Assembly (NCBI GenBank): GCA_025352625.1
Contig: JANXSR010000479.1
Span: 1-37,172 of the forward strand
DNA length: 37,172 nt
DNA from: Ferruginibacter sp.
GTDB lineage: Bacteria; Bacteroidota; Bacteroidia; Chitinophagales; Chitinophagaceae
Direction of reading: 5' to 3'
In this document: positions 1,643 through 17,059 of the stretch, one piece after another
How positions within the stretch are numbered: position 1 is the first letter of the stretch
Layout of the letters: every line of letters begins with the position of its first letter
Notes under the pieces: generated by a model
Seen by the model: only the letters and a program-made list of their open reading frames with translations
Databases searched by the model: none
Told to the model about the DNA's origin: nothing
Program-made: the position numbers and the translations under genes

Positions 1643-2203
1643 ATGCGTAAAACTGCTGCCATACTATTATTAATGCTATTTGTATTTAATACAATAGGGT
1701 ATAAATTATGGTTTACCATAGCCATGCAGCATGCAGATAACAGGCTTGAAGCTGCGCTGGATAAGAACAATTTCAATGAGCAGGATTTGTTTACTTTAAA
1801 AATTCCCATCAACTTACCGTATCAAAATTCATGGTCTAGCTTTGAAAGAACAAACGGCGAAATAACTGTTGATGGAGAAACTTATGTGTATGTTCAACGT
1901 AAGGTACAGAATGATACCATGTATTTACAATGCATAAGGCATACAGAAAAAATTAACCTTCAGGAAAAATCAAATGATTATTTCGGCAAGGTAAATGATG
2001 TTGCAGGTAACAACGATGGTAAAAAAATGCCAGGTAAAAGCAGTACTCTTCTAAAGTTTGCTGTATCAGATTTTACAAACGATATTCCCTCATGGAAACA
2101 CGTTTCCTTTACGGCAGATTTGTCCGTATATGCTATTAAACCCTTTATCAACAGTGGTTCTACCCACTTGCAAAAACTGATCAAGCCTCCGCAATCAGTA
2201 TAA
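1643..2203 (+). CDS. Hypothetical membrane-anchored protein
   Basis: A 186-residue protein I cannot assign to a named family. Residues 3-23 form one hydrophobic segment (AAILLLMLFVFNTIGY) after a short basic start, so it is either an uncleaved membrane anchor or a signal peptide without a clear cleavage site. The rest is hydrophilic, rich in Asn and Lys, and probably periplasmic, with beta-like stretches (GEITVDGETYVYVQRKV) and no cysteine or metal-binding pattern apart from one Cys. It ends in LIKPPQSV. It lies 74 bp before the lipoprotein gene at 2278 on the same strand and may be co-transcribed with it. The 165 bp upstream hold no gene; the only structure there is a weak 6-bp hairpin (ATTATC/GATAAT). 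Confidence 0.65.
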   Translation: MRKTAAILLLMLFVFNTIGYKLWFTIAMQHADNRLEAALDKNNFNEQDLFTLKIPINLPYQNSWSSFERTNGEITVDGETYVYVQRKVQNDTMYLQCIRHTEKINLQEKSNDYFGKVNDVAGNNDGKKMPGKSSTLLKFAVSDFTNDIPSWKHVSFTADLSVYAIKPFINSGSTHLQKLIKPPQSV

Positions 2204-2277: not shown

Positions 2278-3603
2278 ATGAAAAGACTTCTTGTATGTCT
2301 TTGCATTGTAGCATCATTGTATTCCTGCAAACCAAATGTGGAATACAAGGCCTACCTGCATGACGCCCAGCTATTTTCCAATACCGTACACGAATTAAAC
2401 AGTGTAGTAATGGGAAACAATTTTCCACCAATGATTGCGGCCCGTAATTATACTTATGGCGCTGTCGCAGCTTATGAAATCATAGCTGCAGGGTATCCTA
2501 AAAAATACCAGTCTTTAGCGGGGCAATTACATGGGCTTACTGATGTTGCAAAACCTACAGCCGATACACCAATAGATTTTGAATTGGCTGCTTTGCTGAG
2601 TTATATAAAAGTAGGAGAAGCAGTTACTTTCCCCGAAGGCAGTATGCAGCTCTTTAAAGACAGCATTTTAACGTTGGCACGGGATAAAGGTCTGCCCGAT
2701 GATATAGAAAAAGCATCTCAAACTTTCGCAGACAGTATGAGTGCCAGCATCATCCGCTGGAGTAAAAAAGATAATTATGCCCAGACAAGAAGTGCTGAAA
2801 AATATACAGTAAGAGATGAACCCGGCCGCTGGGTTCCAACGCCTCCAATGTATGCACAGGCTGCAGAGCCACATTGGATGGAAATAAGGACCATGGCCAT
2901 TGACAGCGCTACACAATTTTTACCACCACCACCCATTCCTTTTAACATTACTGATAAAAGCGGTAAATATTACGAACAGGTGATGGCAATAAAAAATGCA
3001 ACAGATAGCTTAACCGATGAGCAAAAACACATTGCAGAATTTTGGGATGACAATCCTTTTAAGCTCAATGTATCCGGCCATGTAATGTTTGCTACAAAAA
3101 AGTTTTCGCCTTCCGGTCACTGGATGAGTGTAATTGGCATTGCAGCAAAAACTGCCAAATCTGATTATGCCGAAACAGTGTACGCTTATGCAAAAACTTC
3201 CATCGCATTGTTTGATGCATTTATTCAATGTTGGCAGGCAAAATATACTTACAATACTGTTCGTCCGGAAACAGTAATCAACAAGTACATTGATCCAAAC
3301 TGGAGACCCTACCTGCAAACACCGGCCTTCCCCGAATATACTTGTGGGCACTCAACTATTTCTGCTTCAGCAGCCGAAGCGCTTACTGATATCTTCGGAG
3401 ATCATTTTGCTTATACTGACAGTACCGAACTTGAATTTGGTATAAAGAACCGCAATTTTAAGTCGTTTAGGGATGCGGCCCTGGAAAATAATATGGCCAG
3501 GTTTTATGGTGGCATCCATTTTCATCCCTCCTGTATTGTTAGTACAGAAGAGGGAATAAAAGTTGGCCGCTACATTTCTTCCAAATTAAAAATGAAAAAA
3601 TAA
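2278..3603 (+). CDS. Vanadium-dependent haloperoxidase/PAP2-like lipoprotein A
   Basis: A 441-residue lipoprotein of the PAP2/vanadium chloroperoxidase superfamily, whose members bind vanadate (haloperoxidases) or phosphate (phosphatases) in the same pocket. I chose the ATG at 2278 over the upstream in-frame ATG at 2233 because it gives a clean lipoprotein signal (MKRLLVCLCIVASLYSC). The pocket is mostly conserved: K322-x6-R329-P, C356-G357-H358, then R408-x5-H414. The usual Ser of the SGH triad is Cys here, and the residue four after the last His is Ser rather than Asp. FSPSGHW around residue 280 is another family mark. It lies 30 bp before a beta-barrel gene, probably in one operon. Location is a lipid-anchored envelope protein. 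Haloperoxidase and phosphatase activity cannot be separated from sequence alone. Confidence 0.82.
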   Translation: MKRLLVCLCIVASLYSCKPNVEYKAYLHDAQLFSNTVHELNSVVMGNNFPPMIAARNYTYGAVAAYEIIAAGYPKKYQSLAGQLHGLTDVAKPTADTPIDFELAALLSYIKVGEAVTFPEGSMQLFKDSILTLARDKGLPDDIEKASQTFADSMSASIIRWSKKDNYAQTRSAEKYTVRDEPGRWVPTPPMYAQAAEPHWMEIRTMAIDSATQFLPPPPIPFNITDKSGKYYEQVMAIKNATDSLTDEQKHIAEFWDDNPFKLNVSGHVMFATKKFSPSGHWMSVIGIAAKTAKSDYAETVYAYAKTSIALFDAFIQCWQAKYTYNTVRPETVINKYIDPNWRPYLQTPAFPEYTCGHSTISASAAEALTDIFGDHFAYTDSTELEFGIKNRNFKSFRDAALENNMARFYGGIHFHPSCIVSTEEGIKVGRYISSKLKMKK

Positions 3604-3633: not shown

Positions 3634-4800
3634 ATGAAATACATTTTATCAGCAATATTTATAGTTACCTTCTACATTCAAACAGCTGCACAAGGTTGCG
3701 TTGCTGTTCGCCAAATGGGTGGCATTAACGCTATGTTCCCTTCCAGTTCTTACAATCTTTCTAAAGGGGATATGCAGGTAGGCACTAACTATCGTTATTT
3801 TCATTCATGGCGTCACTTTGTGGGAACCGAGGAACAAAAACAACGTCAAAATACAGGTGGAGGAATTGGGTTAGATGGTATAGATCATGGTAACGCAGTT
3901 AACATTTATTCACATGCTGTAGACCTGAATTTTTCTTATGCCCTAACAAACCGTATTCAATTAAATGTAACCCTGCCATATGTACACAATGAACGTTCTC
4001 AGGTTTTAAGACAAACCTTGCCGGTAAAAGACACTTTCCGCTACAGTGTTTTTGCAAAGGGACTTGCCGATATTCGCATTGGTGCCAGTTACTGGGTGAT
4101 CGATCCCGCCAAAGCACACAGTGGAAATATAATGATAGGGATCGGCCTTAAATTACCTACAGGAAGTCATTCTGAAACTGATCTAGTCCCTCAATCAAAC
4201 GGAACTAAAAGAATAGGAATTATGGATCAGGCAATTCAGCCAGGTGATGGAGGATTGGGTTTCTCTGTTGAATTACAAGGCTTCAAAAAAATATATAAAA
4301 GTATTTATGGCTTTGCGAATGGTTATTATTTATTCAGTCCAAAAGAATCAAATGGTACTTTTAAATCTGCTCCAAGCCCTGGTTTAGCCGGTTATAATGT
4401 TTATGCTTGTCCTGACCAGTATTTTGCACGTGCAGGTTTTATGGCAGCAGTAGGAAAGGCAAAAAATTTAACGCTTTCATTGGCAGCAAGATGGGAAGGT
4501 ATTCCGGCATATGATGCTTTTGGTGGACAGGTTGCTTACCGTCGTCCCGGTTATGTGGTGGCTATAGAACCCGGCATCTCTTATCAAAAAGGACAGCATA
4601 CACTAAGTTTATTTGTGCCATTTAATTTTGTTAGAAACCGCATTCAAAGTGCTGCTGATATTGCCAGTCAGAATTTGCAGAATTCTGCCGTTCCGACTCC
4701 TCCAAAATTGGTGCATGTACAAGGTGATGCTGCGTTTGCAGATTATTCTATCAGCTTTGGTTACACTTACAGATTTGTAAAAAATAAAAAGCATTCATAA
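3634..4800 (+). CDS. Outer-membrane beta-barrel protein (MetA-pathway transporter-like) A
   Basis: A 388-residue protein with a cleavable signal peptide (MKYILSAIFIVTFYIQTAAQ) followed by alternating beta-strand patterns typical of an outer-membrane barrel: repeated amphipathic strands separated by Gly/Asn turns, such as RIQLNVTLPYVHNE and ISFGYTYRF. NVTLPYVHNERSQV and DIRIGASYWV resemble the transporter family found with phenol meta-cleavage genes (Pfam Phenol_MetA_deg), which I recall as a broad barrel family, so the name does not prove a phenol substrate. A paralogue follows at 4891. The gene follows haloperoxidase-like lipoprotein A by 30 bp and ends just before a strong hairpin. It may be a channel or a structural partner for the lipoprotein; the function is inferred only. 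Confidence 0.7.
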   Translation: MKYILSAIFIVTFYIQTAAQGCVAVRQMGGINAMFPSSSYNLSKGDMQVGTNYRYFHSWRHFVGTEEQKQRQNTGGGIGLDGIDHGNAVNIYSHAVDLNFSYALTNRIQLNVTLPYVHNERSQVLRQTLPVKDTFRYSVFAKGLADIRIGASYWVIDPAKAHSGNIMIGIGLKLPTGSHSETDLVPQSNGTKRIGIMDQAIQPGDGGLGFSVELQGFKKIYKSIYGFANGYYLFSPKESNGTFKSAPSPGLAGYNVYACPDQYFARAGFMAAVGKAKNLTLSLAARWEGIPAYDAFGGQVAYRRPGYVVAIEPGISYQKGQHTLSLFVPFNFVRNRIQSAADIASQNLQNSAVPTPPKLVHVQGDAAFADYSISFGYTYRFVKNKKHS

Positions 4801-4890: not shown

Positions 4891-5844
4891 ATGAAATACT
4901 TTTTGTCAATTCCATTAATAACTGTTTTTCTGATCATAACATCACCATTGATTAGCCACGCACAAACAGATATGGATGCCATTATGATGGAGAAAAAACA
5001 GTTTTGTGTGGGCCCCATGTATAGCTACAACAGTTGGAAAAACTATTGGGAAGGCTCCTTAAAAAGAGAGAACCTTAACCTTGGAACCGTAAGTTCACAA
5101 ACCTTTTCATTAATGGGAGCTTATGGTGTTAGCGGAAAATTGAACCTCTTGTTTAACGTTCCTTATATCACAACAAAAGCGTCTGCTGGTACACTACATG
5201 GAATGAAGGGTATACAGGATCTTAGCCTGTATATAAAATGGATGCCGGTTGAAAAACAATGGGGGCCCGGAACTTTCTCGTTGTATGCCATTGGAGGAGT
5301 TTCAGTACCGCTTACAAATTATGTGGCAGATTTTCTTCCTTTAGCAATTGGTTTGCATAGCAAAACTGCTTCTGCAAGATTAATGCTTGATTACCAGGTT
5401 GGGAAAATTTTTGTTACCGGTTCTGCAACTTTTGTTGCAAGAGAAAACATAACTATTGACCGCACCTCTTATTATACAGAACAAATACATCTTACCAATG
5501 AAGTATCTATGCCCGATGCTTCTAATTTTAATTTTCGTGCCGGTTACAGAAGCAGTAAATTAATTGCTGAGGCCGTATTAAACAAATGGACAACACTTGG
5601 AGGTTTTGATATCAGCAGAAACAATATGCCTTTCCCTAGCAATAAAATGAATGCGACCACCATTGGAGCCAATTTTAAATATGTTGTAACGCCCAACCAT
5701 AAATTATCCCTAGTTGGTGGCGGCAACACAACCGTTGCAGGAAGAAATGTTGGGCAGGCAACTAACTTTTATGGTTCTATTTTTTATATTCTTGATTTTA
5801 CACACAAAACAAAAAAAGCTGACCAATCTGGTAAAACTAATTAA
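4891..5844 (+). CDS. Outer-membrane beta-barrel protein B
   Basis: A 317-residue predicted outer-membrane protein with signal peptide MKYFLSIPLITVFLIITSPLISHAQ, with cleavage expected after HAQ. The mature part has repeated amphipathic beta-strands (KLNLLFNVPYITT, FSLYAIGGVSVPL, KLSLVGGGNTTVAG) and no globular domain I recognise. It shares a layout with the barrel at 3634: an N-terminal MKYxLS start, an early Y-x-W segment (YSYNSWKNYW against YRYFHSWRHF) and a strand ending in PY. The two are probably diverged duplicates, though this one is about 70 residues shorter. Its stop codon lies one base before the next start at 5846, so it is surely co-transcribed with haloperoxidase-like lipoprotein B. 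The hydrophilic tail (KTKKADQSGKTN) after the last strand is unusual for a barrel, which normally ends in an aromatic residue. Confidence 0.68.
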   Translation: MKYFLSIPLITVFLIITSPLISHAQTDMDAIMMEKKQFCVGPMYSYNSWKNYWEGSLKRENLNLGTVSSQTFSLMGAYGVSGKLNLLFNVPYITTKASAGTLHGMKGIQDLSLYIKWMPVEKQWGPGTFSLYAIGGVSVPLTNYVADFLPLAIGLHSKTASARLMLDYQVGKIFVTGSATFVARENITIDRTSYYTEQIHLTNEVSMPDASNFNFRAGYRSSKLIAEAVLNKWTTLGGFDISRNNMPFPSNKMNATTIGANFKYVVTPNHKLSLVGGGNTTVAGRNVGQATNFYGSIFYILDFTHKTKKADQSGKTN

Positions 5845-5845: not shown

Positions 5846-7399
5846 ATGAACACGAAACAATTTCTATATAGATTTTTTATTGCGGCAATTGTAGTATTAA
5901 TTATTGCGGCCTGCAGTAAGGATATTGTAGGTAGAACTGACAATACAATCGCCCTGCAACCTGCAAATATTGACTTAAATGCAGGCAGCTGGAAGCCGGT
6001 GTTGTTAACTGCACCAACAGATATTGTTGTTGCTACACCTATAGCTACCAACAGCCCCGATTATATTATACAGATAAATGAAATAAAAAGCTTTCAGGCC
6101 AATATTACAACTGAAGAAAAAAACCTTGTAGCTTATTGGAGTGCCGGTGCCATATTGCGCTGGAATGAAATTTTGCGGGAACTGGTAGCAAAACATAATT
6201 TAGCTCCTTATCAAAATGCTGATGGTACTTACCCTTTTCCCAGTGCCAATAATCCACTCGCTTACCCGCTGTTTCCTTTTGCCAACCCTCCCTATGCGGC
6301 AAGGGCTTATGCTTATGTAAGCGCAGCCCAGTATGATGCATTGGTAACTGCATGGTATTATAAAAAACAATTTAACCGTGCTGCCCCCTATAAAGTTGAT
6401 TCTTCTTTAAAAGTGTTGGTGCCAAAATCAGATCTTCCTTCCTATCCATCTGAAGATGCGGTAGTGGAAGGCACAGCCGTTGAAATGTTGAAATTACTTT
6501 TTCCCGGCGACCAGGATTATATACAGCAAAGAGCAGAAGAACATAGAAGAGCCCGTCTTATTTCTGGTGCCAACGTTCGCAGTGATATTGAAGCCGGTGA
6601 AGCTTTGGGCAAAGCGGTAGCACAAAAATTTGTAGCAAGAGCCCGTGGCGACAGGGCCGGTGCTGCAGCAGGTAATCAAACTATTTGGACAAAACTGGAA
6701 ACAGATTGTGCTGCAAGGGGAGAAACGCCGTGGCAAAGTTTAGAGTCGCCCAAACGTCCGCCTATGTTGCCCTTATTTGGCAAAGTAAAAACGTTTTTGT
6801 TTGATTCACTTACTGCTGTATCGCTTCGTGCAGTTGCTCCTCCTTCTACAAGCAGCAAGCAAATGAAAGATGAAACAGAAGAAATTTACCAATTAGTGAA
6901 AAATCCAACCCGTGAAAGAACAGCCATTGTTCAGTTTTGGGCTGATGGTGTTGCAACCTATACACCACCGGGCCATTGGGATGCTATTGCCGCAGAAGAT
7001 TTTATTAATAAAAATTTCAGTGAGGTTAGATGGGCAAGGAATATGGCGTTGCTAAACATGTCGCTAATGGATGCCGCAATTGTTTGTTGGGATACTAAAT
7101 ATTTTTATTTTAATCCAAGGCCATCACAATTGAACCCGGCAATAAAAACACTTACCGGTATGCCTAATTTCCCCTCGTATGTATCAGGCCATTCCACCTT
7201 CAGTGGTGCAGCTGCTGCCATACTTAGTCATATTATTCCTGACAGGGCAACTGCTTACGATGCTATGGCAAAGGAAGCTTCTGTTTCAAGAATGTATGGG
7301 GGTATTCATTACCGGAGTGATTGCGAGGTTGGTTTAACAGTAGGAAAAAATGTTGGTGGTTACGCCATTAAAAGAGCGCTAACGGATGGCGCTGAATAA
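5846..7399 (+). CDS. Vanadium-dependent haloperoxidase/PAP2-like lipoprotein B
   Basis: A 517-residue lipoprotein of the same superfamily as the gene at 2278. The start at 5846 gives a lipobox signal (MNTKQFLYRFFIAAIVVLIIAAC) and sits one base after the previous stop; the longer in-frame extension to 5714 would overlap the barrel gene and is rejected. All the pocket residues are canonical: K418-x6-R425-P, S447-G448-H449-S, S481-R482-x5-H488 and D492 four residues on. PPGHWDAIAAEDF near residue 375 matches the second family signature. The N-terminal 200 residues are Ala- and Pro-rich and probably helical, as in bacterial haloperoxidase-like proteins. The intact pocket makes this the better candidate of the two for a vanadate enzyme; acid phosphatase activity is the alternative. 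Confidence 0.85.
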   Translation: MNTKQFLYRFFIAAIVVLIIAACSKDIVGRTDNTIALQPANIDLNAGSWKPVLLTAPTDIVVATPIATNSPDYIIQINEIKSFQANITTEEKNLVAYWSAGAILRWNEILRELVAKHNLAPYQNADGTYPFPSANNPLAYPLFPFANPPYAARAYAYVSAAQYDALVTAWYYKKQFNRAAPYKVDSSLKVLVPKSDLPSYPSEDAVVEGTAVEMLKLLFPGDQDYIQQRAEEHRRARLISGANVRSDIEAGEALGKAVAQKFVARARGDRAGAAAGNQTIWTKLETDCAARGETPWQSLESPKRPPMLPLFGKVKTFLFDSLTAVSLRAVAPPSTSSKQMKDETEEIYQLVKNPTRERTAIVQFWADGVATYTPPGHWDAIAAEDFINKNFSEVRWARNMALLNMSLMDAAIVCWDTKYFYFNPRPSQLNPAIKTLTGMPNFPSYVSGHSTFSGAAAAILSHIIPDRATAYDAMAKEASVSRMYGGIHYRSDCEVGLTVGKNVGGYAIKRALTDGAE

Positions 7400-7598: not shown

Positions 7599-7629
7599 TT
7601 ATTTTTTCCTAAACTTATAACACTACTAT

Positions 7630-8190
7630 ATGCCATATATTCCATTAGAGGACCACTTGCCGGGTATTACCGGTTTGCTGGAATACAGTAAAGATACTGC
7701 TGCACCAATCAGAGAGCTGACACAAACGCTGCTTCGGGGACCGTCTACTTTAACAGAAGGAGAAAGGGAATTGATAGCCACGATTGTTTCTCATCGCAAC
7801 CAATGTACTTTTTGCGTCACTGCTCATACGGCAGCGGCAGATATTTTATTAGGTGAAGAAGAAACCTCAACCAAAGTAAAACAAGATATCAGCACTGCTC
7901 CGGTAAGTGATAAAATGAAGGCCCTGTTAACCATTGCTTCACTAGCGCAGGAAAGTGGAAAGAGTGTAACACCCGAATCTGTACAAAAAGCAAAAGATGC
8001 CGGTGCAACAGACATAGAAATTCACGATACTGTTTTAATTGCAGCATTGTTTTGTTTATACAACCGTTATGTAGATGGGCTTTCAACAGTTACGCCTACC
8101 GATCCTGCATTTTACAAAGGCCTGGGAGAGCGTTTAAAAAACAATGGCTACAATCGTTTGCCAGAAGGCTATGAGCATCTTAAAAAATAA
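7630..8190 (+). CDS. AhpD-like carboxymuconolactone decarboxylase family protein (CMD1)
   Basis: A 186-residue all-helical protein of the CMD/AhpD superfamily, closest in pattern to the uncharacterized peroxidase-related group. The AhpD catalytic set is complete: E47, C59-x2-C62 and H66 (E-x11-CTFC-x3-H), the same spacing as the Glu118/Cys130/Cys133/His137 relay of mycobacterial AhpD. A second block, EIHDTVLIAALFCLYNRYVDGL, is shared by all four paralogues in this window. It has no signal peptide and is therefore cytoplasmic. A thiol-disulfide or peroxide-reducing role is inferred; true gamma-carboxymuconolactone decarboxylases lack this redox pair. The MFS gene starts 3 bp after its stop, so transcription and probably translation are coupled. 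The leader carries two stem-loop repeats. Confidence 0.86.
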   Translation: MPYIPLEDHLPGITGLLEYSKDTAAPIRELTQTLLRGPSTLTEGERELIATIVSHRNQCTFCVTAHTAAADILLGEEETSTKVKQDISTAPVSDKMKALLTIASLAQESGKSVTPESVQKAKDAGATDIEIHDTVLIAALFCLYNRYVDGLSTVTPTDPAFYKGLGERLKNNGYNRLPEGYEHLKK

Positions 8191-8193
8191 AAA

Positions 8194-9465
8194 ATGACAG
8201 CACCTTTAGAAGATGAAAAAATAAAAACCTATCACTGGTTGTTGTTTGCTATTTGCTTTTTGGGGACTGCTTTTGCAGGAACTATTTCCACCCTGATGAG
8301 TGTTTATTTACCGGTAGTAGTAAAAGATTTACTGGGCGATAAAAGTGAAAATGAATTGAATACCATCAGTGCTTATATTAATGCGATATTTATTTTGGGC
8401 GGATCGTTCGGTGGTTTTATTTGCGGTGTTATCAGCGATAAAGCCGGCAGAAAAACAGGCGTAATATTTTCCATTGCCAGTTATGGCATCTTTACCATTT
8501 TAACCGGTTATATGCCCAATTGGTGGGCTGTTGTAATCTGCCGCTTTTTTAGTGGCTTTGGTTTGGGTGGTGTGCTGGTTACTACCGTAACTTTAATGAT
8601 GGAAGAATGGCCACAAAAAACAAGGGCCATCTTTATTGGTATTTTATCTATCTCCATTCCGGTTGGCATTTTTTCTGCCGGGGTAATTGATTATTTCGTT
8701 TCCTCCTGGCGTCAGGGATTTTTAGTAGGCATCCTGCCGGTTGGTATCTCTATCCTTGCTGTTTTTTTATTAAAAGAATCGCCAAAATGGAAATACAACC
8801 GGGATGAAATTACATTGCAACCAACTGCAAAAGACACGTTGTTTACAGGAAGCCATCGCAAAGATTTAATCACCGGTTCCATCATTTTCGGCACTATGCT
8901 CATTGGCTTGTGGGCCATCTTTTCTTGGTTGCCCACCTGGATACAAAGTCTCGTTACAAGCGGCGATGCACAAAAAGAAAGAGGATTTAGCATGATGATG
9001 TTGGGCATCGGTGGTTTAACCGGCGGTTTTTTATCTGGCTGGTTAACCAATGCAATTGGCTTACAAAAATCAATGCTGCTTTGTTTTTCAGTGTGTGCGT
9101 TTATGTCACTTATCTTATTTAAAACCAATCCTGTTTTTTCGCCGGTTATTTATGTTGAAATTATAATACTTGCTTTATTTTTTGGTGCCAGCCAGGGTGT
9201 GCTTTCTGTTTATATTCCTCATTTATTTCCGGTTGATATTCGTGGCACAGCCACAGGATTTTGTTTTAACATCGGTAGAATTTTTACTGCAATCGCTGTG
9301 CTATTTGTGGGTGTATTGGTAACCGAATTGGGTGGTTATGGTAATTCTTTATTTCTTTTTTCTACGGTATTTCTAATAGGTTTAGCGGTAACATTTTTCA
9401 CTTCCACTTCATCTGATATTAAAGAGGTGGATGAGGTGCAATTAAAAGTTGATAGTATTCATTAA
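8194..9465 (+). CDS. MFS transporter
   Basis: A 423-residue integral membrane protein with about 12 hydrophobic segments. The MFS loop 2-3 signature is present as GVISDKAGRKTG, and the matching second-half loop follows GGFLSGWLTNAIG. CRFFSGFGLGG in helix 4 and the central LLKESPKW resemble the metabolite/organic-acid:H+ and SV2-like branch of the MFS, which includes aromatic-acid and sugar symporters. It probably works in the inner membrane, either taking up the compound brought in by the nearby SusC/SusD pair or exporting a product. It lies 3 bp after CMD1 and 55 bp before CMD2, and this tight placing between two CMD genes suggests that their substrate and the cargo are related. The substrate cannot be read from the sequence. 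Confidence 0.88.
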   Translation: MTAPLEDEKIKTYHWLLFAICFLGTAFAGTISTLMSVYLPVVVKDLLGDKSENELNTISAYINAIFILGGSFGGFICGVISDKAGRKTGVIFSIASYGIFTILTGYMPNWWAVVICRFFSGFGLGGVLVTTVTLMMEEWPQKTRAIFIGILSISIPVGIFSAGVIDYFVSSWRQGFLVGILPVGISILAVFLLKESPKWKYNRDEITLQPTAKDTLFTGSHRKDLITGSIIFGTMLIGLWAIFSWLPTWIQSLVTSGDAQKERGFSMMMLGIGGLTGGFLSGWLTNAIGLQKSMLLCFSVCAFMSLILFKTNPVFSPVIYVEIIILALFFGASQGVLSVYIPHLFPVDIRGTATGFCFNIGRIFTAIAVLFVGVLVTELGGYGNSLFLFSTVFLIGLAVTFFTSTSSDIKEVDEVQLKVDSIH

Positions 9466-9520
9466 AACCTGTAGCCCTCTTCAGGCCAATACTTTGCCAG
9501 GTGGCGAGTGAGGGAAATTT

Positions 9521-10069
9521 ATGGCGCATATTAAAGTGGAAGAAAACATTCCCGGAATAAGAAGCCTGGTACTTTTTAGACCTGAAACAGGTAAATCTCT
9601 GTATGATTTGGCACAGGTTTTATTGCGTGGCCCATCTTCATTGCCGGAAGCGGAAAGAGAATTAATTGCAGCTTATGTGTCTTACCGAAATGATTGTATG
9701 TTTTGTATGAAAAGCCACGCTGCTGCCGCAAGATGTTTATATGGAGCAGAAGAAAAACTGGTGGACGAAGTGCTGAATGATATGCAGCAATCTAACGTGA
9801 GTAATAAAATGAAAGCTTTGCTACACATAGCCGGTAAAGTACAGATACTGGGTAAAGAAGTAAGATTAGAAGACATAATAGCTGCAAGGTCTTTGGGTGC
9901 TGATGATAAGGAAATACATGATACCGTTTTAATCGCAGCTTCCTTTTCTATGTTCAATCGATATGTGGATGGGCTGGCAAGTTTTACACCGACGGATGCT
10001 ACAGTATATGAAGAAATGGGCAAGCGAATGGTGAATGGATATTTGCCCCCTTCGTCGGAACAAAGCTAA
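9521..10069 (+). CDS. AhpD-like carboxymuconolactone decarboxylase family protein (CMD2)
   Basis: A 182-residue paralogue of CMD1 with the same residue numbering at the active site: E47, C59-M-F-C62, H66. The conserved second block EIHDTVLIAASFSMFNRYVDGL is present, but the Cys found at its FC position in the other three is Ser here (SFSMFNRY). No signal peptide. It begins with MAHI, as does CMD4, and its N-terminal motif PGIRSLVLFRPETGKSL is intermediate between CMD1 and CMD4. It lies in line with the MFS gene (55 bp upstream) and CMD3 (44 bp downstream), so an operon is likely. Role as for CMD1; CMD family proteins act as homo-oligomers, so mixed oligomers of these paralogues are possible but untested. 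Confidence 0.86.
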   Translation: MAHIKVEENIPGIRSLVLFRPETGKSLYDLAQVLLRGPSSLPEAERELIAAYVSYRNDCMFCMKSHAAAARCLYGAEEKLVDEVLNDMQQSNVSNKMKALLHIAGKVQILGKEVRLEDIIAARSLGADDKEIHDTVLIAASFSMFNRYVDGLASFTPTDATVYEEMGKRMVNGYLPPSSEQS

Positions 10070-10086
10070 CACCCAACAGCATCAAC

Positions 10087-10104
10087 TCATCATTCATCAT
10101 TCAT
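10087..10104 (+). repeat. Period-7 short tandem repeat before CMD3
   Basis: TCATCAT repeats two and a half times directly before the CMD3 start (10114). Another period-7 tract, built on ATTATCC, lies before CMD4 at 15161. Such tracts can change copy number by slippage; whether this one does is unknown. Confidence 0.6.
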
Positions 10105-10113
10105 AACTAAACA

Positions 10114-10674
10114 ATGCCACACATAAATTTCAACAACGATTTTCCGGGCATCAGAAGTGCCATGGCTTACAGTCCTGAAACAGCAGCACCCATGGGTGTA
10201 CTGGCTGAAATTTTATTAAGAAGCAATGATGGCTTAACGCCGGCCGACAGGGAATTGATTGGCATGTATGTCTCGTATTTAAATGATTGTTTTTACTGTA
10301 ATCATTCTCATGGAGAGATCGCCTGCATTTATTTAGGTGGCGATAGGGAACTGGTAGAACAAGTAAGAAAGGATTATTCCAAAGCCCCTATTTCTGACAA
10401 ATTAAAATCACTGCTGGCCATCGCAGCAAAAGTACAAAAGGGAGGAAAATTTGTAACCGTAGAAGATGTAGCAAAGGCAAAAGAAAATGGTGCAGATGAT
10501 AAAGATATACATGATACCGTATTGATTGCTGCGGCATTTTGCATGTTCAACCGCTATGTTGATGGGCTGGCTACCATCACCCCAACGGATATGGATTCTT
10601 ATCCGCTTCGTGCAAAACAAATAGTTGACAATGGCTATGGTAACCATGTTTTTACCAATAAACAACCTACCTAA
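10114..10674 (+). CDS. AhpD-like carboxymuconolactone decarboxylase family protein (CMD3)
   Basis: A 186-residue member of the same family. The active-site set is E47, C59-F-Y-C62 and H66, with an extra His at position 64 (CFYCNHSH). The DIHDTVLIAAAFCMFNRYVDGL block is intact. It resembles CMD4 most: both have NDFPGIR, LLRS and VSYLNDCF, while CMD1 and CMD2 have LLRGPS and an Arg in place of the Leu. This suggests two subgroups from an older duplication. No signal peptide, so cytoplasmic. It starts just after a period-7 tract and ends 60 bp before the SusC-like gene, which puts it at the head of the receptor genes as well as the tail of the CMD-MFS series. Confidence 0.86.
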   Translation: MPHINFNNDFPGIRSAMAYSPETAAPMGVLAEILLRSNDGLTPADRELIGMYVSYLNDCFYCNHSHGEIACIYLGGDRELVEQVRKDYSKAPISDKLKSLLAIAAKVQKGGKFVTVEDVAKAKENGADDKDIHDTVLIAAAFCMFNRYVDGLATITPTDMDSYPLRAKQIVDNGYGNHVFTNKQPT

Positions 10675-10734
10675 CAAAATTCCTTTTATAACCCAACTCA
10701 ATTTTTATTCATTTAAAAACAACATTACACTCAA

Positions 10735-13686
10735 ATGAAAAAGTTTATTTATTTTATGGCAGGCCTGCTATGCTTTTTATTATTGCCCGGCTGGCTACTT
10801 GCCCAGGATAAAACAATTACCGGTAAGGTTACCGATGCAAACCTTGTTCCTTTACCGGGAGTTAATATTGTCATCAACAAAAGCAATAAAGGCACGGTTA
10901 CAGATGCCGATGGAAAATTCAGCCTGTCAATATCCGGCAATGCAAAATTGCTTATCAGTGCAGCCGGGTTTAAAACAAAAACGATTGCTACCGAAGCTGC
11001 GCAAACAGATATTCAGGTAAAAATGGAAGAAGATTTCGCCAAGCTGGATGAAGTGGTTGTAACGGGGCTTGCTACCAATGTAAAAAGAAGGAACCTGGCC
11101 AATGCAGTAGCTACTATCTCATCTAAACAACTAACAGGTGTAGCACCTGCTCAAACTTTTGATGCCGCCTTAAACGGAAAAATATCCGGAGCTTATATCA
11201 ATTCGAACAGTGGTGCTCCCGGTGGTGGTATATCAGTAAAACTTAGAGGTGTTACTTCCATTTATGGCAATACACAACCTCTATATGTAGTGGATGGCGT
11301 GTTTATAGATAACACTGCTACTTCCGGTGGTTTAAATGCAGTAACAAATGCTGCTTCAGGCGGCAGCCCTACTTCCAACCAGGATAATCCATCAAGCCGC
11401 ATCGCAGATATACGTGCAGAAGATATTGAGAACATTGAAATTTTGAAAGGTGCTTCTGCCGCTGCTATCTATGGGTCCAAAGCTTCCGCAGGTGTTATCA
11501 TCATTACTACCAAAAGAGGCAAACAAGGCAAAACAAGCATCAATATTTCGCAGGACCTTGGCCAAATTGCTGCAAGAAAATTATTAGGCGTTCGGGAGTT
11601 TACTGCAGACAGAGCCGCCAGCCTTTCCCGTGATCCTGCTACCAGCGCTGCATTGGCAGCCCAGTTTACTGCTGCAAAATCAGCAAGACAAATTTATGAT
11701 TATGAAAAGGAAGTGTATGGCAACAAAGGCTTTGCAAGAAACACCGTCCTAAGCATGAGTGGTGGTGGCGAAAAAACAGGATTTTATTTTTCGGCTGCAC
11801 AAAAAGACGAAGACGGCATTGTAAAAAATACTGGCTATCGCAACAGCAGCGTCCGGTTAAACCTGGATCACCGCATAACGGATAATATCAAAATTGGTAT
11901 CAGTACAAATTATATCAATTCTTCTGCAGACAGAGGTTTGTCGGGTAATGATAATTCAGGTACTTCTCTTGGTATTGCCCTTTCATCTACGCCCAGCTTT
12001 GCACAATTACATCCTGACCAGTTCGGTAACTATCCGGCCAATCAATTTGGAGCATCCAATCCATTGCAGACAATTGCTTTAATGACCAATAATGAATCGG
12101 TTAACAGGTTTATCACCGGTTTAAACCTGGATGCCATTCTGCAGAAAAACAACAGCAGCATTACCAGGTTAATTGGAAGGGGTGGTTTTGATTTTTATAA
12201 TCTTGAGACCAATGCTTTGTTTCCAAGCACCCTTCAGTTTCAGGCAGTAAATAAAGGCACTTCTATACAAGGTGCTACAAAAAATTTAAGTACCAATTAT
12301 ATTCTTTCTCTTGTAAATACATTTACCCCTGCTGACAAATTATCCTTAACTACCTCTGCAGGTATTACCAGGGAAACAGGTGACTACAATAACCTGCTGA
12401 ATGTAGCTACACAGGTTATTTCGGGCCAGTCAAATGTTGACCAGGCTGGTGCTTTAACAGCCACACAGTTCAGGGCTAAATATCAAAACGATGGCGTGTT
12501 TATACAGGAAGAAGCGGTTATCAATAATGGAATTAATGTAACAGGCGGTGTTCGTTTTGACCGTTCAAGCAACAATGGCGACGCCAATAAATATTATGCC
12601 TATCCTAAAGCTGGTCTGTCAATTAATCTTACCAGTTTGGGCTTAATACAAAAAGGATTATTTGATGATATAAAATTAAGGGCTGCCTATGGACAGGCTA
12701 CCAACGTTCCTGCCTATGGAAGCAAGTTTACTTCGCTGGTGGTGTCTAATATTGCGGGCAATCCCGGTTCATTGGTAAATACACAACGTGGCGATCCATC
12801 CATCAAACCAGAAAGACAAACGGAACTGGAAGCAGGGATCGACTTTAGTTTATTGAATGGAAAATTAGCGTTTGAATTTACTTACTACAACAAAAAAATA
12901 AACGACTTCCTGATGCTTGCAGGGCTGCCGGCGTCTTCAGGTTTTTCAAACAAATGGGTGAATGCCGGTGACTTGCGTAACAGGGGTGTTGAACTGGGTG
13001 TAAAAGCAAAACCGATCTCATCAAAGAATATTACCTGGAATACATCGGTTAATTTCTGGCTCAACAAATCTCTGGTCACAAGGTACACTATAGCTCCTGT
13101 TCCGCAGGGCTCATTTGGTTATGTACTTGGTTCGTTTCAAATTGAACAGGGTAAATCTGCCACACAAATTCTTGGCTTAAATGGCGCCGGCGTTGGTGTA
13201 TTAGGCAATGCAGAACCAAAGTTCCAGATGAATACCTACAATGAAATTACTTTTCGCAATAAATTAAGCCTGCGGTTTTTAATGCATTGGAAAAAAGGTG
13301 GCGACAATGTAAACCTTACTTACTTGCAAAACGATTTTGGACAAACATCTGCTGACTTTGATGCAATGACAATTAAAGATGGAGTGCCGAACGGGGTTTA
13401 CAGGATTATGCAGGTAGGAAGCTCTGCTAAAGTTTTTGTTGAAGATGCCAGTTACCTGCGTTTAAGAGAAATAGGGTTGTACTATTCTTTCAATAAATTA
13501 CCAGCCAGTTCATTTATAAAAAATATCAGGGTTGGTGCATCGCTGAATAATTACCTCACCATCACAAAATATAAATCATACGATCCTGAAGTATCCAATT
13601 TTGGAACAGGTTTTTCATCAGGTGTAGATGTTGATCCTTACCCGGCATCCAAGCGGGCCTCTTTACATATTTCTATAGATTTCTAA
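10735..13686 (+). CDS. SusC/RagA-like TonB-dependent outer-membrane receptor
   Basis: A 983-residue SusC-type transporter, the usual length for the family. The signal peptide covers residues 1-24 (LLPGWLLAQ). A CarboxypepD_reg-like domain follows at about 25-100 (ITGKVTDANLVPLPGVNIVI). LDEVVVTG at 104-111 is the TonB-box-like segment that opens the plug, and the plug shows LRGVTSIYGNTQPLYVVDGV. The rest is a 22-strand barrel ending in a C-terminal Phe (LHISIDF), as required for barrel assembly. It imports a ligand captured by its SusD partner, 56 bp downstream, with energy from TonB-ExbBD. No glycoside hydrolase or peptidase lies next to the pair, unlike most polysaccharide-use loci; the neighbours are CMD proteins and an MFS transporter. 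A small, non-polymeric ligand is therefore plausible. Confidence 0.95.
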   Translation: MKKFIYFMAGLLCFLLLPGWLLAQDKTITGKVTDANLVPLPGVNIVINKSNKGTVTDADGKFSLSISGNAKLLISAAGFKTKTIATEAAQTDIQVKMEEDFAKLDEVVVTGLATNVKRRNLANAVATISSKQLTGVAPAQTFDAALNGKISGAYINSNSGAPGGGISVKLRGVTSIYGNTQPLYVVDGVFIDNTATSGGLNAVTNAASGGSPTSNQDNPSSRIADIRAEDIENIEILKGASAAAIYGSKASAGVIIITTKRGKQGKTSINISQDLGQIAARKLLGVREFTADRAASLSRDPATSAALAAQFTAAKSARQIYDYEKEVYGNKGFARNTVLSMSGGGEKTGFYFSAAQKDEDGIVKNTGYRNSSVRLNLDHRITDNIKIGISTNYINSSADRGLSGNDNSGTSLGIALSSTPSFAQLHPDQFGNYPANQFGASNPLQTIALMTNNESVNRFITGLNLDAILQKNNSSITRLIGRGGFDFYNLETNALFPSTLQFQAVNKGTSIQGATKNLSTNYILSLVNTFTPADKLSLTTSAGITRETGDYNNLLNVATQVISGQSNVDQAGALTATQFRAKYQNDGVFIQEEAVINNGINVTGGVRFDRSSNNGDANKYYAYPKAGLSINLTSLGLIQKGLFDDIKLRAAYGQATNVPAYGSKFTSLVVSNIAGNPGSLVNTQRGDPSIKPERQTELEAGIDFSLLNGKLAFEFTYYNKKINDFLMLAGLPASSGFSNKWVNAGDLRNRGVELGVKAKPISSKNITWNTSVNFWLNKSLVTRYTIAPVPQGSFGYVLGSFQIEQGKSATQILGLNGAGVGVLGNAEPKFQMNTYNEITFRNKLSLRFLMHWKKGGDNVNLTYLQNDFGQTSADFDAMTIKDGVPNGVYRIMQVGSSAKVFVEDASYLRLREIGLYYSFNKLPASSFIKNIRVGASLNNYLTITKYKSYDPEVSNFGTGFSSGVDVDPYPASKRASLHISIDF

Positions 13687-13742
13687 AAAATAGGTAAAGA
13701 AAAAACGGATCAATTTTATAAAACGCAATTAAAAATATTAAA

Positions 13743-15044
13743 ATGAAACACAGTAAATATATATACACAACCATTGCAATGGCGATGGCTATTTTCTTAT
13801 CAGCCTGTAAAAAAGACTACGGCAATTTAAACAGTCCTACTATTGAGCAATTTTTAGGCAATGCATCCAAAAGCGAATTAAATAACCTGGTAAGTGGTAC
13901 CGAATCGGGCATGCGGAATAATATGGCTTTTTACCTGGATGATGTTGGTACTATCGGCAGGGAAGGATACCGCTTTTCCGGATCAGAACCACGCTATGTT
14001 ACAGATCTGTTGGGTGCAAATGATGCCAGCCTTAGCAGCAGCAATTTTTATATCACCAATCCCTGGGCGGCCCGTTACAGGGTTGTAAAAAATTGCAATA
14101 CCCTTATCCAGGCTGCAACCAATTCTACATTAATAACCAGTGGAGAAAAAAGTGGCTATATAGGTTTTGCAAGAACCATTAAGGCCTACCAGTTATTGCT
14201 TAACCTTAACCTTACCTACACAAAAGGTATCAGGATCAATGTTACCGATCCGGATAACCTGGGTGCATTTGTTAGTTATGATGATGGGTTAAGCGGCATT
14301 GCATCCATATTGGATTCTGCTAAAACAGATTTAGGGACTGCTTCCGTTGCATTTCCGCTTGCAGGGTTTAACAGCTTTAATGATGCACCAGGTCTTTTAA
14401 AAGTAAATCGTGCCATCGCTGCCCGTGTTGCGGCCTATCGTAAAAAATGGGACGACGTACTGACTGCATTAAACGAATCTTTTTTTGATGTAACCAAAGA
14501 CTTTAACCTGGGCGTTAACCAAGTGTTTGGTACGGGATCAGGCGACCAGTTGAACTCTATGTTTATCCCAAAAAACCAAAATGGCGAAGTAAGGGTTGCG
14601 CATGCTTCTTATGCCACGGATATAAAAAACGGCGATGACAGAATTAATAAAGCTACGCTTAGAAACTCCACTGCCTCCCTCAATGGCCTTAGCAGCGACA
14701 GGGACGTTTGGGTGTACACATCAAGCACTGCCGCTATGCCCATTATAAGAAATGAAGAGTTGATATTATTATATGCAGAAGCAAAAATAAACAACAGTTC
14801 TTTCCCTGATGCCATTACCGCATTGAATGTAATAAGGCGGGGCCATAACCTTGCTCCTTACGCCGGAGCCTCCACAACAGATGCTCTGCTAACAGAACTG
14901 TTGTATGAAAGAAGGTATTCTCTCTTTTATGAAGGCCATCGCTGGATAGACATGCGCAGGTATAATAAACTCGCCGATTTGCCAATAGACAGAACCGGCG
15001 ACGATGTATGGACAGAATTTCCATTACCGGTAACAGAGCAGTAA
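13743..15044 (+). CDS. SusD/RagB-like ligand-binding lipoprotein
   Basis: A 433-residue surface lipoprotein that forms the lid of the SusC channel encoded 56 bp upstream. Lipoprotein signal: residues 1-22 with Cys in FLSACKKD. The TPR-like helical part shows GYIGFARTIKAYQLLLNL and the typical C-terminal SusD signature is ERRYSLFYEGHRWIDMRR, followed by a short end in FPLPVTEQ. It is at the short end for SusD proteins (often 450-600), which fits a compact ligand site but says nothing about which ligand. The pair is probably transcribed with CMD3. Repeats rich in TAATGGA follow the stop codon. Confidence 0.92.
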   Translation: MKHSKYIYTTIAMAMAIFLSACKKDYGNLNSPTIEQFLGNASKSELNNLVSGTESGMRNNMAFYLDDVGTIGREGYRFSGSEPRYVTDLLGANDASLSSSNFYITNPWAARYRVVKNCNTLIQAATNSTLITSGEKSGYIGFARTIKAYQLLLNLNLTYTKGIRINVTDPDNLGAFVSYDDGLSGIASILDSAKTDLGTASVAFPLAGFNSFNDAPGLLKVNRAIAARVAAYRKKWDDVLTALNESFFDVTKDFNLGVNQVFGTGSGDQLNSMFIPKNQNGEVRVAHASYATDIKNGDDRINKATLRNSTASLNGLSSDRDVWVYTSSTAAMPIIRNEELILLYAEAKINNSSFPDAITALNVIRRGHNLAPYAGASTTDALLTELLYERRYSLFYEGHRWIDMRRYNKLADLPIDRTGDDVWTEFPLPVTEQ

Positions 15045-15060
15045 TTTAATTTTAATGGCT

Positions 15061-15087
15061 AATTTTTTAATTGGTAATGGATAATGG
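15061..15087 (+). repeat. AT-rich repeat unit A after the SusD gene
   Basis: AATTTTTTAATTG (15061-15073) is the exact reverse complement of 15151-15163, and is followed by TAATGGATAATGG. Units A and B could form a 13-bp stem across the 166-bp gap between the SusD gene and CMD4. The same words recur after CMD4 (unit C). Confidence 0.55.
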
Positions 15088-15152
15088 TTCATAGCAGGTT
15101 CAAACAATGAAGGCAAATATCTCAAATTTATTGCGCTTGTATTTCATTTTCA

Positions 15153-15177
15153 ATTAAAAAATTATCCATTATCCATT
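15153..15177 (+). repeat. 25-bp inverted repeat, left copy (unit B), upstream of CMD4
   Basis: This 25-bp segment is the exact reverse complement of 15762-15786. It contains the period-7 tract ATTATCC-ATTATCC-ATT. The two copies lie immediately on either side of the CMD4 gene, 33 bp before its start and 2 bp after its stop. No transposase or target-site duplication is seen. Confidence 0.75.
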
Positions 15178-15210
15178 CATTAATATTCTTCAAATTATAA
15201 TACTCCAAAC

Positions 15211-15759
15211 ATGGCGCATATTGATTTGCAAAATGATTTTCCCGGCATTCGTGGGCCGATGGCATTCAGGCCGGAAACGGCTAAATCATTAAATGAATTG
15301 GCTGAAGTATTGCTTCGAAGCGATAACAGTTTAAGTCGCGGTGAAAGAGAATTAATTGCAGCCTATGTATCTTATTTAAATGATTGCTTTTTTTGTCAAA
15401 ATGTACATGGAGGCCTGGCACAACACTACCTGCAATGCGACAGCGATTTTATTGAAGCAGTAAAAAATGATTTCATATCAACCAGCGTTTCTGCAAAGAT
15501 GAAAACTTTATTATGGATTGCAGCAAGTGTACAAAAGGGTGGAAAAAAAGTGCGGCCTGAGCAAATTGAAGCTGCAAAAATTGTTGGCGCTACCGATGCA
15601 GAAATACATGATACCGTATTAATCGCCGCTGCCTTTTGTATGTTTAACCGCTATGTAGATGGTCTGGCAACCTGGGCACCGGAAGACAAAACGTATTATA
15701 TAGAAAGAGCAAAGCAGCGTGCTGAAGAAGGGTATGCTGGTTATGATGCAAGCAAATAA
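15211..15759 (+). CDS. AhpD-like carboxymuconolactone decarboxylase family protein (CMD4)
   Basis: A 182-residue member of the CMD/AhpD family with active-site residues at the same numbers as its three paralogues: E47, C59-F-F-C62, H66. EIHDTVLIAAAFCMFNRYVDGL is present. It is most like CMD3 (NDFPGIR, LNDCF). No signal peptide, so cytoplasmic. It is separated from the SusD gene by 166 bp of repeat-rich DNA and enclosed between perfect 25-bp inverted repeats, so it may be expressed on its own and may have arrived or moved as a unit. Thiol-disulfide or peroxidase-related activity is inferred from the AhpD-type residues; the physiological substrate is unknown. Confidence 0.86.
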   Translation: MAHIDLQNDFPGIRGPMAFRPETAKSLNELAEVLLRSDNSLSRGERELIAAYVSYLNDCFFCQNVHGGLAQHYLQCDSDFIEAVKNDFISTSVSAKMKTLLWIAASVQKGGKKVRPEQIEAAKIVGATDAEIHDTVLIAAAFCMFNRYVDGLATWAPEDKTYYIERAKQRAEEGYAGYDASK

Positions 15760-15761
15760 TT

Positions 15762-15786
15762 AATGGATAATGGATAATTTTTTAAT
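15762..15786 (+). repeat. 25-bp inverted repeat, right copy (unit C), downstream of CMD4
   Basis: Exact reverse complement of 15153-15177, starting 2 bp after the CMD4 stop codon; a further TAATGGATAATG follows. The rest of the 163-bp gap to 15923 contains no gene and no other structure that I can support. Confidence 0.75.
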
Positions 15787-15922
15787 GGATAATGTGGCTA
15801 GTTCAAAGTACTTGAATGTGCATAGCCACGGATGAAAAACGGGCGATAAAAAATAGAAACTGCCAATTACTTTTAGTTGACTAATAAAGAATAAAAAGGA
15901 ACACAAAATGTAAATAAAGGAT

Positions 15923-17059
15923 ATGAAAAAAATATTTTACCTCGGCTTTGTTGGTCTGCTGCTTTTTGAAATATTCAATGTGTACCTCATCATGCCCATG
16001 CCCGGCAGCCAGCGGATGAACAGTATTGATGTGGCGTATTTTTTATACCAATGGCGCTGGCTGTTCAGGGGCTTTTTTGCAGCCGCCTTACTGATCGGTT
16101 TGTTCGGTACAACCTGGGAACGCAAATGGAAATTGGCCGTTCCTCTGGTGATTTTAGCAGTTGCAATTTACATGGCTAACTTCAACATGGCTGCAGACCA
16201 TATGTTTAGTAACCCAAAGACTTTATTAATGTCAACTGCCAGCAACAATAAAGTGGACAGCAACCGCCTGGTAATTGGCGTGGTAAACAATGGCGAAGCA
16301 ATGGCATATCCCATCAGGTTTTTAGGATACCATCACCAGGTGCAGGATATAGTGGGTGGCAAACCTTTGCTGATCACTTATTGCACTGTATGCAGAACAG
16401 GCCGTGTGTACGAACCATTGGTGAATGGAAAGCCGGAACAATTCCGCCTGGTTGGCATGGATCATTTCAACGCCATGCTGGAAGATGTTACTACCAAAAG
16501 CTGGTGGCGGCAGGCAACCGGTGAGGCCATTACCGGAAAATTAAAAGGGCAAAAACTGCCGGAATTTTTTAGCACCCAAACCTCCCTAACAAAATGGCTG
16601 GAGCTAAATCCAACCTCATTGGTAATGCAGGAAGATCCATCGTTTAAAGATGAATATGATACTACAGGAAAATTTGAAAGTGGCAAAAGCACCAGCAAGC
16701 TAACCGGTACAGACAGCCTCAGTTGGAAAGATAAATCATGGGTGATTGGTGTAAAAGTGGGCAAAGAAAAAAAGGCCTATGACTGGAACCAGTTAATGGC
16801 AGAACGCATCATCAATGATAAATTAGATGGCAAAAATATTGTGGTGGTATTGGCGCAGGATAATAAAAGTTTCTTTGCTTTTGAAAACCCTGAGGCAACT
16901 AACAACTTTACAATACATAATGATACTTTAATTCAAGGTAATCTTCAATACACCATCAATGGAAAAGCAATCGGCAATAATGCAGCGTTAAAACCCTTGC
17001 CTGCTTACCAGGAGTTTTGGCATAGCTGGAGAACATTTAATGCAGATACAAAGAAGTAA
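15923..17059 (+). CDS. DUF3179 domain-containing membrane protein
   Basis: A 378-residue protein. The first 100 residues hold three hydrophobic segments: about 4-24, 48-63 (FRGFFAAALLIGLFGT) and 73-88 (LAVPLVILAVAIYMAN). The DUF3179 domain follows, recognised by the stretch from VVNNGEAMAYPIRFLGYH through LLITYCTVCRTGRVYEP, with its C-x2-C pair, and by FRLVGMDHFNAMLED. The domain has no established activity. The CTVC motif suggests a redox or metal-binding role, but this is inference. The soluble part probably faces the periplasm. It is the last + strand gene of the CMD/SusCD region; its end is 14 bp from the convergent phosphodiesterase gene. It may function with the CMD proteins, which are also CxxC proteins. 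Confidence 0.85.
   Translation: MKKIFYLGFVGLLLFEIFNVYLIMPMPGSQRMNSIDVAYFLYQWRWLFRGFFAAALLIGLFGTTWERKWKLAVPLVILAVAIYMANFNMAADHMFSNPKTLLMSTASNNKVDSNRLVIGVVNNGEAMAYPIRFLGYHHQVQDIVGGKPLLITYCTVCRTGRVYEPLVNGKPEQFRLVGMDHFNAMLEDVTTKSWWRQATGEAITGKLKGQKLPEFFSTQTSLTKWLELNPTSLVMQEDPSFKDEYDTTGKFESGKSTSKLTGTDSLSWKDKSWVIGVKVGKEKKAYDWNQLMAERIINDKLDGKNIVVVLAQDNKSFFAFENPEATNNFTIHNDTLIQGNLQYTINGKAIGNNAALKPLPAYQEFWHSWRTFNADTKK

Follow-up and report, generated by a model that had tools for sequence, protein, structure and literature searches.

A 37,172-nucleotide stretch of Ferruginibacter sp. DNA (assembly GCA_025352625.1, contig JANXSR010000479.1, positions 1 to 37,172; hereafter the window) carries four AhpD-like CMD paralogues, CMD1 to CMD4, clustered with a major facilitator superfamily (MFS) transporter, a SusC/SusD pair and a DUF3179 protein, and comparison with related loci revealed that this arrangement recurs across Bacteroidota. 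The gene content, the homology and orthology of the parts and the conservation of their neighbourhood are established below. As a tentative explanation, we favour uptake of an organic compound, oxidised or halogenated, that the CMD proteins would process at Cys62 in the cytoplasm, with two gene blocks fused in this lineage and haloperoxidases acting outside the cytoplasm.

Gene organization of the locus

Genes were called as open reading frames (ORFs) in the window and in the compared loci. The unit was taken as 13 co-directional genes on the + strand (approximately 1643-17059):

c2, 1643..2203, +: 186 aa, with a single membrane helix at the N-terminus and a small beta domain; opens the unit
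VHPO1, 2278..3603, +: vanadium-haloperoxidase-like lipoprotein, 441 aa, matching PDB 4cit
OMP1, 3634..4800, +: judged by eye to be an outer-membrane-type protein; unmatched in Pfam at 0.001
OMP2, 4891..5844, +: Phenol_MetA_deg-type outer-membrane protein (PF13557, E 1.6e-07)
VHPO2, 5846..7399, +: second haloperoxidase/PAP2-like lipoprotein (PF01569, E 6.2e-16)
CMD1, 7630..8190, +: AhpD-like protein, 186 aa, Pfam CMD
MFS transporter, 8194..9465, +: nearest to TIGR00895
CMD2, 9521..10069, +: AhpD-like protein, 182 aa, Pfam CMD
CMD3, 10114..10674, +: AhpD-like protein, 186 aa, Pfam CMD; the paralogue associated with SusC/SusD
SusC, 10735..13686, +: SusC-type TonB-linked receptor (TIGR04056)
SusD, 13743..15044, +: SusD-type lipoprotein (PF07980, E 4.1e-16)
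CMD4, 15211..15759, +: AhpD-like protein, 182 aa, Pfam CMD
DUF3179, 15923..17059, +: PF11376 above cut-off (E 8.8e-51), three membrane helices and an extracytoplasmic part, CTVC at 154-157

The first-pass annotation of this DNA had reported the four CMD genes, the MFS transporter, SusC/SusD and DUF3179 at these positions, and the ORFs and Pfam agree; the upstream extension of five co-directional genes (c2, the haloperoxidase pair and the two outer-membrane proteins), starting at approximately 1643, was absent from it. From VHPO2 onward, intergenic gaps are at most 60 bases, except at 7399-7630, 15044-15211 and 15759-15923. Read by eye, VHPO1 and VHPO2 have lipoprotein-type N-terminal signals, and the four CMD proteins have no signal peptide. 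The Pfam scan of the unit's proteins found no carbohydrate-active enzyme within 1643-17059; the earlier statement that no hydrolase lies nearby holds for this core and fails for the flanks, where two such genes lie outside the unit, one of GH65 type with its end at 1477 and one for a trehalase starting at 18436.

SusC scored above the TIGR04056 cut-off (523.8 against 368.25 bits), as did the adjacent SusD for PF07980 (59.9 against 23.1 bits). The best family for the MFS transporter was TIGR00895 (aromatic acid/H+ symport), at 153.9 bits far below the cut-off of 418.55. All four CMD proteins matched Pfam CMD (E 3.5e-14 to 3.8e-12). For TIGR01926, CMD1, CMD2 and CMD3 lie above the cut-off of 81.8 bits (85.4, 83.8 and 85.4), with CMD4 just below it at 80.5.

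Conservation of the neighbourhood

Pattern searching of species genomes gave at least 592 matches, at least 520 of which encode a relative; the best 80 loci were kept by similarity to CMD1, and CMD1 is present in all 80 because of this selection. By title, 78 are Bacteroidota, one is Ignavibacteriota and one is labelled Williamsia. Twelve loci with short flanks were dropped, leaving 68 usable loci with at least 2.5 kb upstream and at least 8 kb downstream of CMD1, and same-strand neighbours were counted up to a distance of 9.5 kb.

At least two CMD genes were found in 63 of the 68 loci and at least three in 53, and 62 contained an MFS gene. A TonB receptor or SusC was present in 56 loci (SusD-less TonB receptor in 47, SusC in 10), with SusD in 6. 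c2 occurred in 55 loci, ending no more than 1.5 kb upstream of CMD1 in 42, and DUF3179 in 32. The commonest order was c2-CMD1-TonB receptor-MFS-CMD2-CMD4, with c2-CMD1-MFS-CMD2-CMD4-CMD3-SusC-SusD as a variant; an annotated Spirosoma plasmid carries the plain form of the cassette, CMD-TonB receptor-MFS-CMD-CMD. The import logic of the first-pass annotation (outer-membrane TonB receptor, MFS, cytoplasmic CMD proteins) is conserved among related loci, and DUF3179, which it had proposed as a possible part of the system, proved a frequent partner. The role it gave to SusC/SusD is not supported as stated, since this pair is not the core: 47 of the 68 loci use the SusD-less receptor, and SusC/SusD accompanies CMD3. 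Eight of the 80 loci have a SusC sharing at least 67% identity with that of the window, and CMD3 precedes it in all eight, with a c2 gene between the two in L046.

Further accessory genes were FG-GAP/UnbV (12/68), MetE-like (8/68) and esterase (3/68) genes. The MetE-like protein at L080:8910-9974 has a single domain (PF01717), a type that lies near CMD1 in the 8 loci, and is strongly conserved in 9 aligned sequences; it may act in methyl or thiol transfer. L042, titled Williamsia (Actinomycetota), has a typical Bacteroidota cassette, and the bin is probably mislabelled.

Genome samples of the order and the phylum were drawn without regard to neighbourhood. In the window's order, the CMD family was found in 47 of 396 genomes (E<=1e-20), with at least two copies in 28 and a single copy in 19; in the phylum, it was found in 26 of 395 genomes (E<=1e-35), with at least two copies in 14 and a single copy in 12. 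The first-pass annotation had tied the idea of one system to the CMD genes being neighbours in related genomes, which is well borne out by the CMD1-selected loci and more weakly by these samples (28/47 and 14/26). Among the 47 CMD-positive genomes of the order, none other than the window's own belongs to the same genus, and 13 listed genomes of that genus gave no match. These counts indicate that the cassette is accessory. Counted by hand, at least 13 of the 30 genomes with both families have DUF3179 and a CMD gene no more than 6 kb apart, where the places of DUF3179 are unlisted for two genomes and one of the 13 depends on a weak CMD row (G316).

Active site and orthology of the CMD paralogues

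Alignment agreed with the first-pass annotation that E47, C59, C62 and H66 are the same in the four CMD proteins and spaced as in AhpD; H132 and D133 are also invariant among them, at identities to CMD1 of 50% (CMD2), 48% (CMD3) and 46% (CMD4). The spacing E-12-C-3-C-4-H equals that of Mycobacterium tuberculosis AhpD, whose site is given as Glu118/Cys130/Cys133/His137 in the available part of PMC3141380. By sequence, the closest solved structures to CMD3 are PDB 2pfx, 2prr, 3c1l and 6k40 (TIGR01926 'peroxidase-related enzyme'), and a genome search located PF02627 in one place besides the window copies. Across 277 CMD rows from the window and 109 loci, E47, C62 and H66 were invariant (277/277), and H132, D133, N145 and Y147 were kept in 275 or 276 rows. 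Selenocysteine forms are tabled for both TIGR01926 (CxxU) and DUF3179 (UxxC/T) in the parts available of PMC13188914 and PMC9312934, which suggests that the cysteine sites of both families are redox sites in relatives.

Phylogenetic analysis of the 277 rows with FastTree recovered a CMD1 clade (89 rows, 89 loci; support 1.0) and a CMD4 clade (60 rows, 60 loci; 0.95), each paralogue occurring once per locus. With IQ-TREE and 103 rows, for which the bootstrap had not fully settled, CMD1 (31 rows) and CMD4 (25 rows) both received 100/99 and CMD2 100/95 (28 of 31 labelled rows), and a SusCD-linked CMD3 group received 99/99 but took in only 5 of the 13 rows with this label, leaving eight outside. 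Judged from these trees, the paralogues form separate orthologue groups, and they look old and retained together because the groups span several host families. At L003:11812-12353, CMD2 is split into two overlapping ORFs, which represents a frameshift or an assembly error.

Actinobacterial relatives of the CMD proteins sit on Streptomyces plasmids and in one Nonomuraea record; two adjoin an MFS gene, and others precede a gene annotated as an oxidoreductase (SDR in both that were scanned). The relative at L126:12001-12552 is 53.7% identical to CMD3 and has Thr59. It comes from a Streptomyces globisporus C-1027 plasmid, where its region also encodes a type I polyketide synthase and further biosynthesis functions, and an SDR gene follows it.

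Haloperoxidases, c2 and DUF3179

Residues 1-439 of the 441 of VHPO1 align to the vanadium haloperoxidase PDB 4cit (E 1.8e-115), which we take to be the iodoperoxidase of Zobellia. PAP2-fold phosphatases have the same site as vanadium haloperoxidases; VHPO1 keeps the K, R, H, R and H of this PAP2-type site, five residues that presumably play their usual vanadate-site roles, and matches Pfam PAP2 only below cut-off. For VHPO2, the best PDB match was also 4cit (E 4.3e-18), in the C-terminal part only. VHPO1-like genes (E<=1e-60) are present in 214 of the 396 genomes of the order, and relatives of OMP1 adjoin haloperoxidase genes.

The c2 family, found in 143 of the 396 genomes of the order, showed no Pfam match at 0.1 and no NCBIfam match at 0.001, and no structure matched its predicted model (pLDDT 80.8, pTM 0.57) at E<=0.001. 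Among 83 listed c2 matches (E<=1e-30; 66 genomes, all of the window's own family; the weak CMD row of G331 excluded), c2 lies within 2.2 kb of a VHPO1-like gene in at least 54, of a CMD gene in 16 and of either in at least 69. c2 links the haloperoxidase and CMD blocks.

In six stretches from the same family (L111-L115 and L117), c2, VHPO1, one or both outer-membrane proteins and DUF3179 occur together, with VHPO2 in five of the six and L114 representing a shorter form; no CMD gene was found within the stretches fetched. A GH65-type gene precedes the block in L111, L112 and L117, and a LacI-type regulator follows DUF3179 in L112. The CMD block is placed between VHPO2 and DUF3179 in the window, L003, L014 and L119. 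Because the haloperoxidase block and DUF3179 occur CMD-free in relatives, the window looks like a CMD block inserted into a haloperoxidase block.

The fold comparison revealed that the extracytoplasmic part of DUF3179 resembles two Rieske-fold domains. The ligand motifs of the Rieske cluster are CxH and CxxH, and DUF3179 has in their place an invariant YHH (136-138) and a CxxC (154, 157).

Upstream sequences

Sigma-70-type promoter matches were close to the shuffled expectation (48 against 49.8), Bacteroidota promoters lying outside this model. The gap between VHPO2 and CMD1 contains a direct repeat (approximately 7432-7610) with GTAATTCYTTACG in each of its two copies; no regulon was seen for GTAATTCYTTACG, since the genome holds only one further copy, on contig C116. 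The strongest signals in the 81 stretches upstream of CMD1 belong to its own start region, including a palindromic dyad centred on the ATG. The best palindrome upstream of c2 was the AT-rich AAAT-N3-ATTT, in 13 of 67 stretches against 2.4 in shuffles.

Proposed mechanism and alternative explanations

In the explanation we favour, the window would represent two conserved Bacteroidota blocks joined as one co-directional unit. Block A (c2, VHPO1, OMP1, OMP2, VHPO2 and DUF3179) would work outside the cytoplasm, where the two haloperoxidase-like lipoproteins may oxidise or halogenate organic compounds with the help of H2O2 and halide, and the CxxC of the membrane-bound DUF3179 could serve in thiol or electron transfer on the periplasmic side. 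Block B (CMD1, MFS, CMD2, CMD4 and CMD3-SusC-SusD) would import a small organic molecule, SusC/SusD here and the SusD-less TonB receptor in most relatives providing the outer-membrane step and the MFS transporter the inner-membrane step. Four specialised cytoplasmic CMD proteins with one active site (E47, C62, H66, H132, D133) would then process it. The likeliest substrate would be an organic molecule in oxidised, peroxidised or halogenated form, which Cys62 would reduce or detoxify at the expense of a thiol such as bacillithiol; bacillithiol is plausible because the genome encodes BshC. The haloperoxidase block would be the external generator in this lineage. The direction of transport, substrate, chemistry and cooperation of the blocks are what we infer here. 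The conserved unit, the supported orthologue groups, the CMD-free occurrence of block A, the link through c2 and the selenocysteine forms speak for this explanation. A more ambitious version, a previously undescribed cross-envelope Bacteroidota pathway with haloperoxidases and a Rieske-fold CxxC DUF3179 oxidising or halogenating organic matter outside, a dedicated TonB-receptor/MFS importer, three or four CMD proteins processing the products inside and c2 marking both halves, is doubtful. Two precedents bear on the favoured explanation. One is RclX, which defends Pseudomonas aeruginosa against HOCl and HOSCN (PMC7950407). The other comes from Zobellia, where, according to the available part of PMC9296495, a CMD protein was raised most on Laminaria digitata and the vanadium iodoperoxidase on Ascophyllum nodosum, a joint rise not being shown there.

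Several observations weigh against this explanation. A haloperoxidase gene was present in only 11 of the 68 CMD loci, and a VHPO1-like gene among those listed was no further than 10 kb away in at least 3 of 21 same-family CMD clusters, although 214 of the 396 genomes of the order have such genes. Many CMD-positive genomes of the wider samples hold a single copy, and the FG-GAP/UnbV, MetE-like and esterase genes point to more than detoxification. Between OMP1 and OMP2, a long AT-rich hairpin of 18 pairs followed by a T-rich stretch (4809-4851) resembles a terminator and is the longest of 27 terminator-like sites in 1400-18500, against 16.3 in shuffles, so that transcription as one unit is uncertain; the 148 upstream stretches compared (67 of c2, 81 of CMD1) yielded no shared operator. 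The thiol-reductase reading of the first-pass annotation is weakened as well, since residue 59 is Cys in 258 of the 277 CMD rows and Thr in 19, and Thr in 8 of the 9 actinobacterial relatives read, so that a two-cysteine cycle is not universal. Thr59 was seen in 15 of 110 loci (window counted), 14 of which have another CMD protein with Cys59, the exception being L108, a 2.8-kb fragment with a single CMD gene. This pattern across loci and actinobacteria suggests that Cys62 is the only essential thiol, that Cys59 may be an optional partner and that labour is divided among specialised paralogues.

The main rival is nutrient import and catabolism, in which a carbon source such as an aromatic acid conjugate would be taken up and the CMD proteins would be non-redox enzymes with Cys62 as nucleophile and E47, H66 and H132-D133 in acid-base roles, the paralogues taking successive steps helped by the MetE-like and esterase genes. 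We consider it rather doubtful. The variation of C59 beside near-complete conservation of the other active-site positions and of N145 and Y147 is consistent with it, as are the esterase (PF00756) and MetE-like (PF01717) genes within some loci and the Streptomyces relatives in or near biosynthesis regions, by SDR or MFS genes; however, C59 is kept in most rows and the selenocysteine forms of TIGR01926 favour redox chemistry. The MFS transporter is nearest to aromatic-acid symporters but far under their cut-off, and no ring-cleavage enzyme was found in the annotated ones of the 45 commonest locus gene clusters, the remainder being unannotated.

Defence against reactive halogens is an unlikely alternative, in which RclX-like CMD proteins would remove hypohalous acids or organic products from the cell's own haloperoxidases, plants or algae, with the MFS transporter as exporter. 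The partial text of PMC7950407 describes RclX, an AhpD-like CMD protein with CXXC that protects Pseudomonas aeruginosa from HOCl and HOSCN. The haloperoxidase genes directly upstream in the window, L003, L014 and L119, and c2, common to haloperoxidase and CMD operons, also fit. However, the majority of CMD loci have no haloperoxidase in the vicinity, this reading leaves the conserved TonB receptor or SusC/SusD unexplained, and four separately orthologous paralogues would exceed the needs of a detoxifier.

Import of metals or siderophores, with the receptor and MFS transporter bringing in a metal complex from which the CMD proteins would free the metal by reduction, is improbable. The plug of the relatives' SusD-less receptor resembles colicin I and catecholate siderophore receptors, and the Spirosoma receptor is annotated with a siderophore-transport tag, but the NCBIfam matches of this receptor are all far below cut-offs and no iron-type palindrome was prominent in the 148 upstream stretches. 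SusC/SusD, moreover, is not typical of siderophore uptake. Ordinary AhpC/AhpD peroxide defence with chance neighbours is very hard to sustain despite the CxxC-E-H site and one PF10417 peroxiredoxin-type gene elsewhere in the genome (its only match, on contig C313), because Pfam identified no AhpC among the unit's 13 proteins, the paralogues form separate orthologue groups, and chance clustering was rejected on the recurrence of the neighbourhood among the 68 usable loci.

Neighbouring genes

Convergent with DUF3179, 17074-18024 (-) encodes a metallo-beta-lactamase-fold protein similar to class II cAMP phosphodiesterases (PF02112, 1.7e-53). The region 18436-26022, with trehalase, a LacI regulator, an MFS gene, a sugar-kinase-like gene (by eye) and GH13, is a disaccharide locus adjoining the unit, the GH65-type gene lying on the opposite side. 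Further downstream, 29713-35616 (-) encodes an FG-GAP/UnbV protein, a 3-keto-disaccharide hydrolase and a GMC oxidoreductase, possibly a 3-keto-sugar locus.

Comparison with known systems

To our knowledge, CMD and AhpD-like proteins are common, but a substrate is known for few of them. A conserved set of three or four orthologous paralogues tied to one importer would offer a genetic route to a substrate, and record titles place the cassette in soil genera that can be cultured, among them Mucilaginibacter, Dyadobacter and Spirosoma. The links of c2 and DUF3179 would likewise give a first handle on the role of the vanadium-haloperoxidase genes common in these bacteria.

The window CMD proteins share their family and E-CxxC-H spacing with AhpD and TIGR01926 proteins, but they form several orthologue groups in one import cluster with no AhpC gene seen adjacent, and window-type proteins have near-invariant HD and NRYV motifs and a first cysteine replaceable by Thr. 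RclX, to which they are likened only by the shared CXXC and family, is encoded alone in its operon, adjacent to the gene of the regulator, rclR, and the partial text of PMC7950407 mentions no receptor or transporter. As in polysaccharide utilisation loci, a true SusC is present with an adjacent SusD; unlike in those loci, the core has no carbohydrate-active enzyme, SusC/SusD is joined by an MFS transporter and CMD proteins, and most relatives have the SusD-less receptor instead. VHPO1 matches the haloperoxidase 4cit over its full length with the catalytic residues kept, halide oxidation here being putative, whereas the window has two copies together with outer-membrane proteins, c2 and DUF3179. 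The DUF3179 protein belongs to PF11376, and its CxxC position corresponds to the UxxC/T selenocysteine site tabled for some members in the parts available of the two selenoprotein sources; the window protein is the cysteine form, and the family is tied here to haloperoxidases or CMD proteins. The combination was not described in the titles and abstract openings of the literature matches listed (open-licence full texts). Judged by homology, all parts except c2 belong to known families, and the TonB-receptor/MFS import cassette with a multi-paralogue AhpD-like set appears to be a new combination of them.

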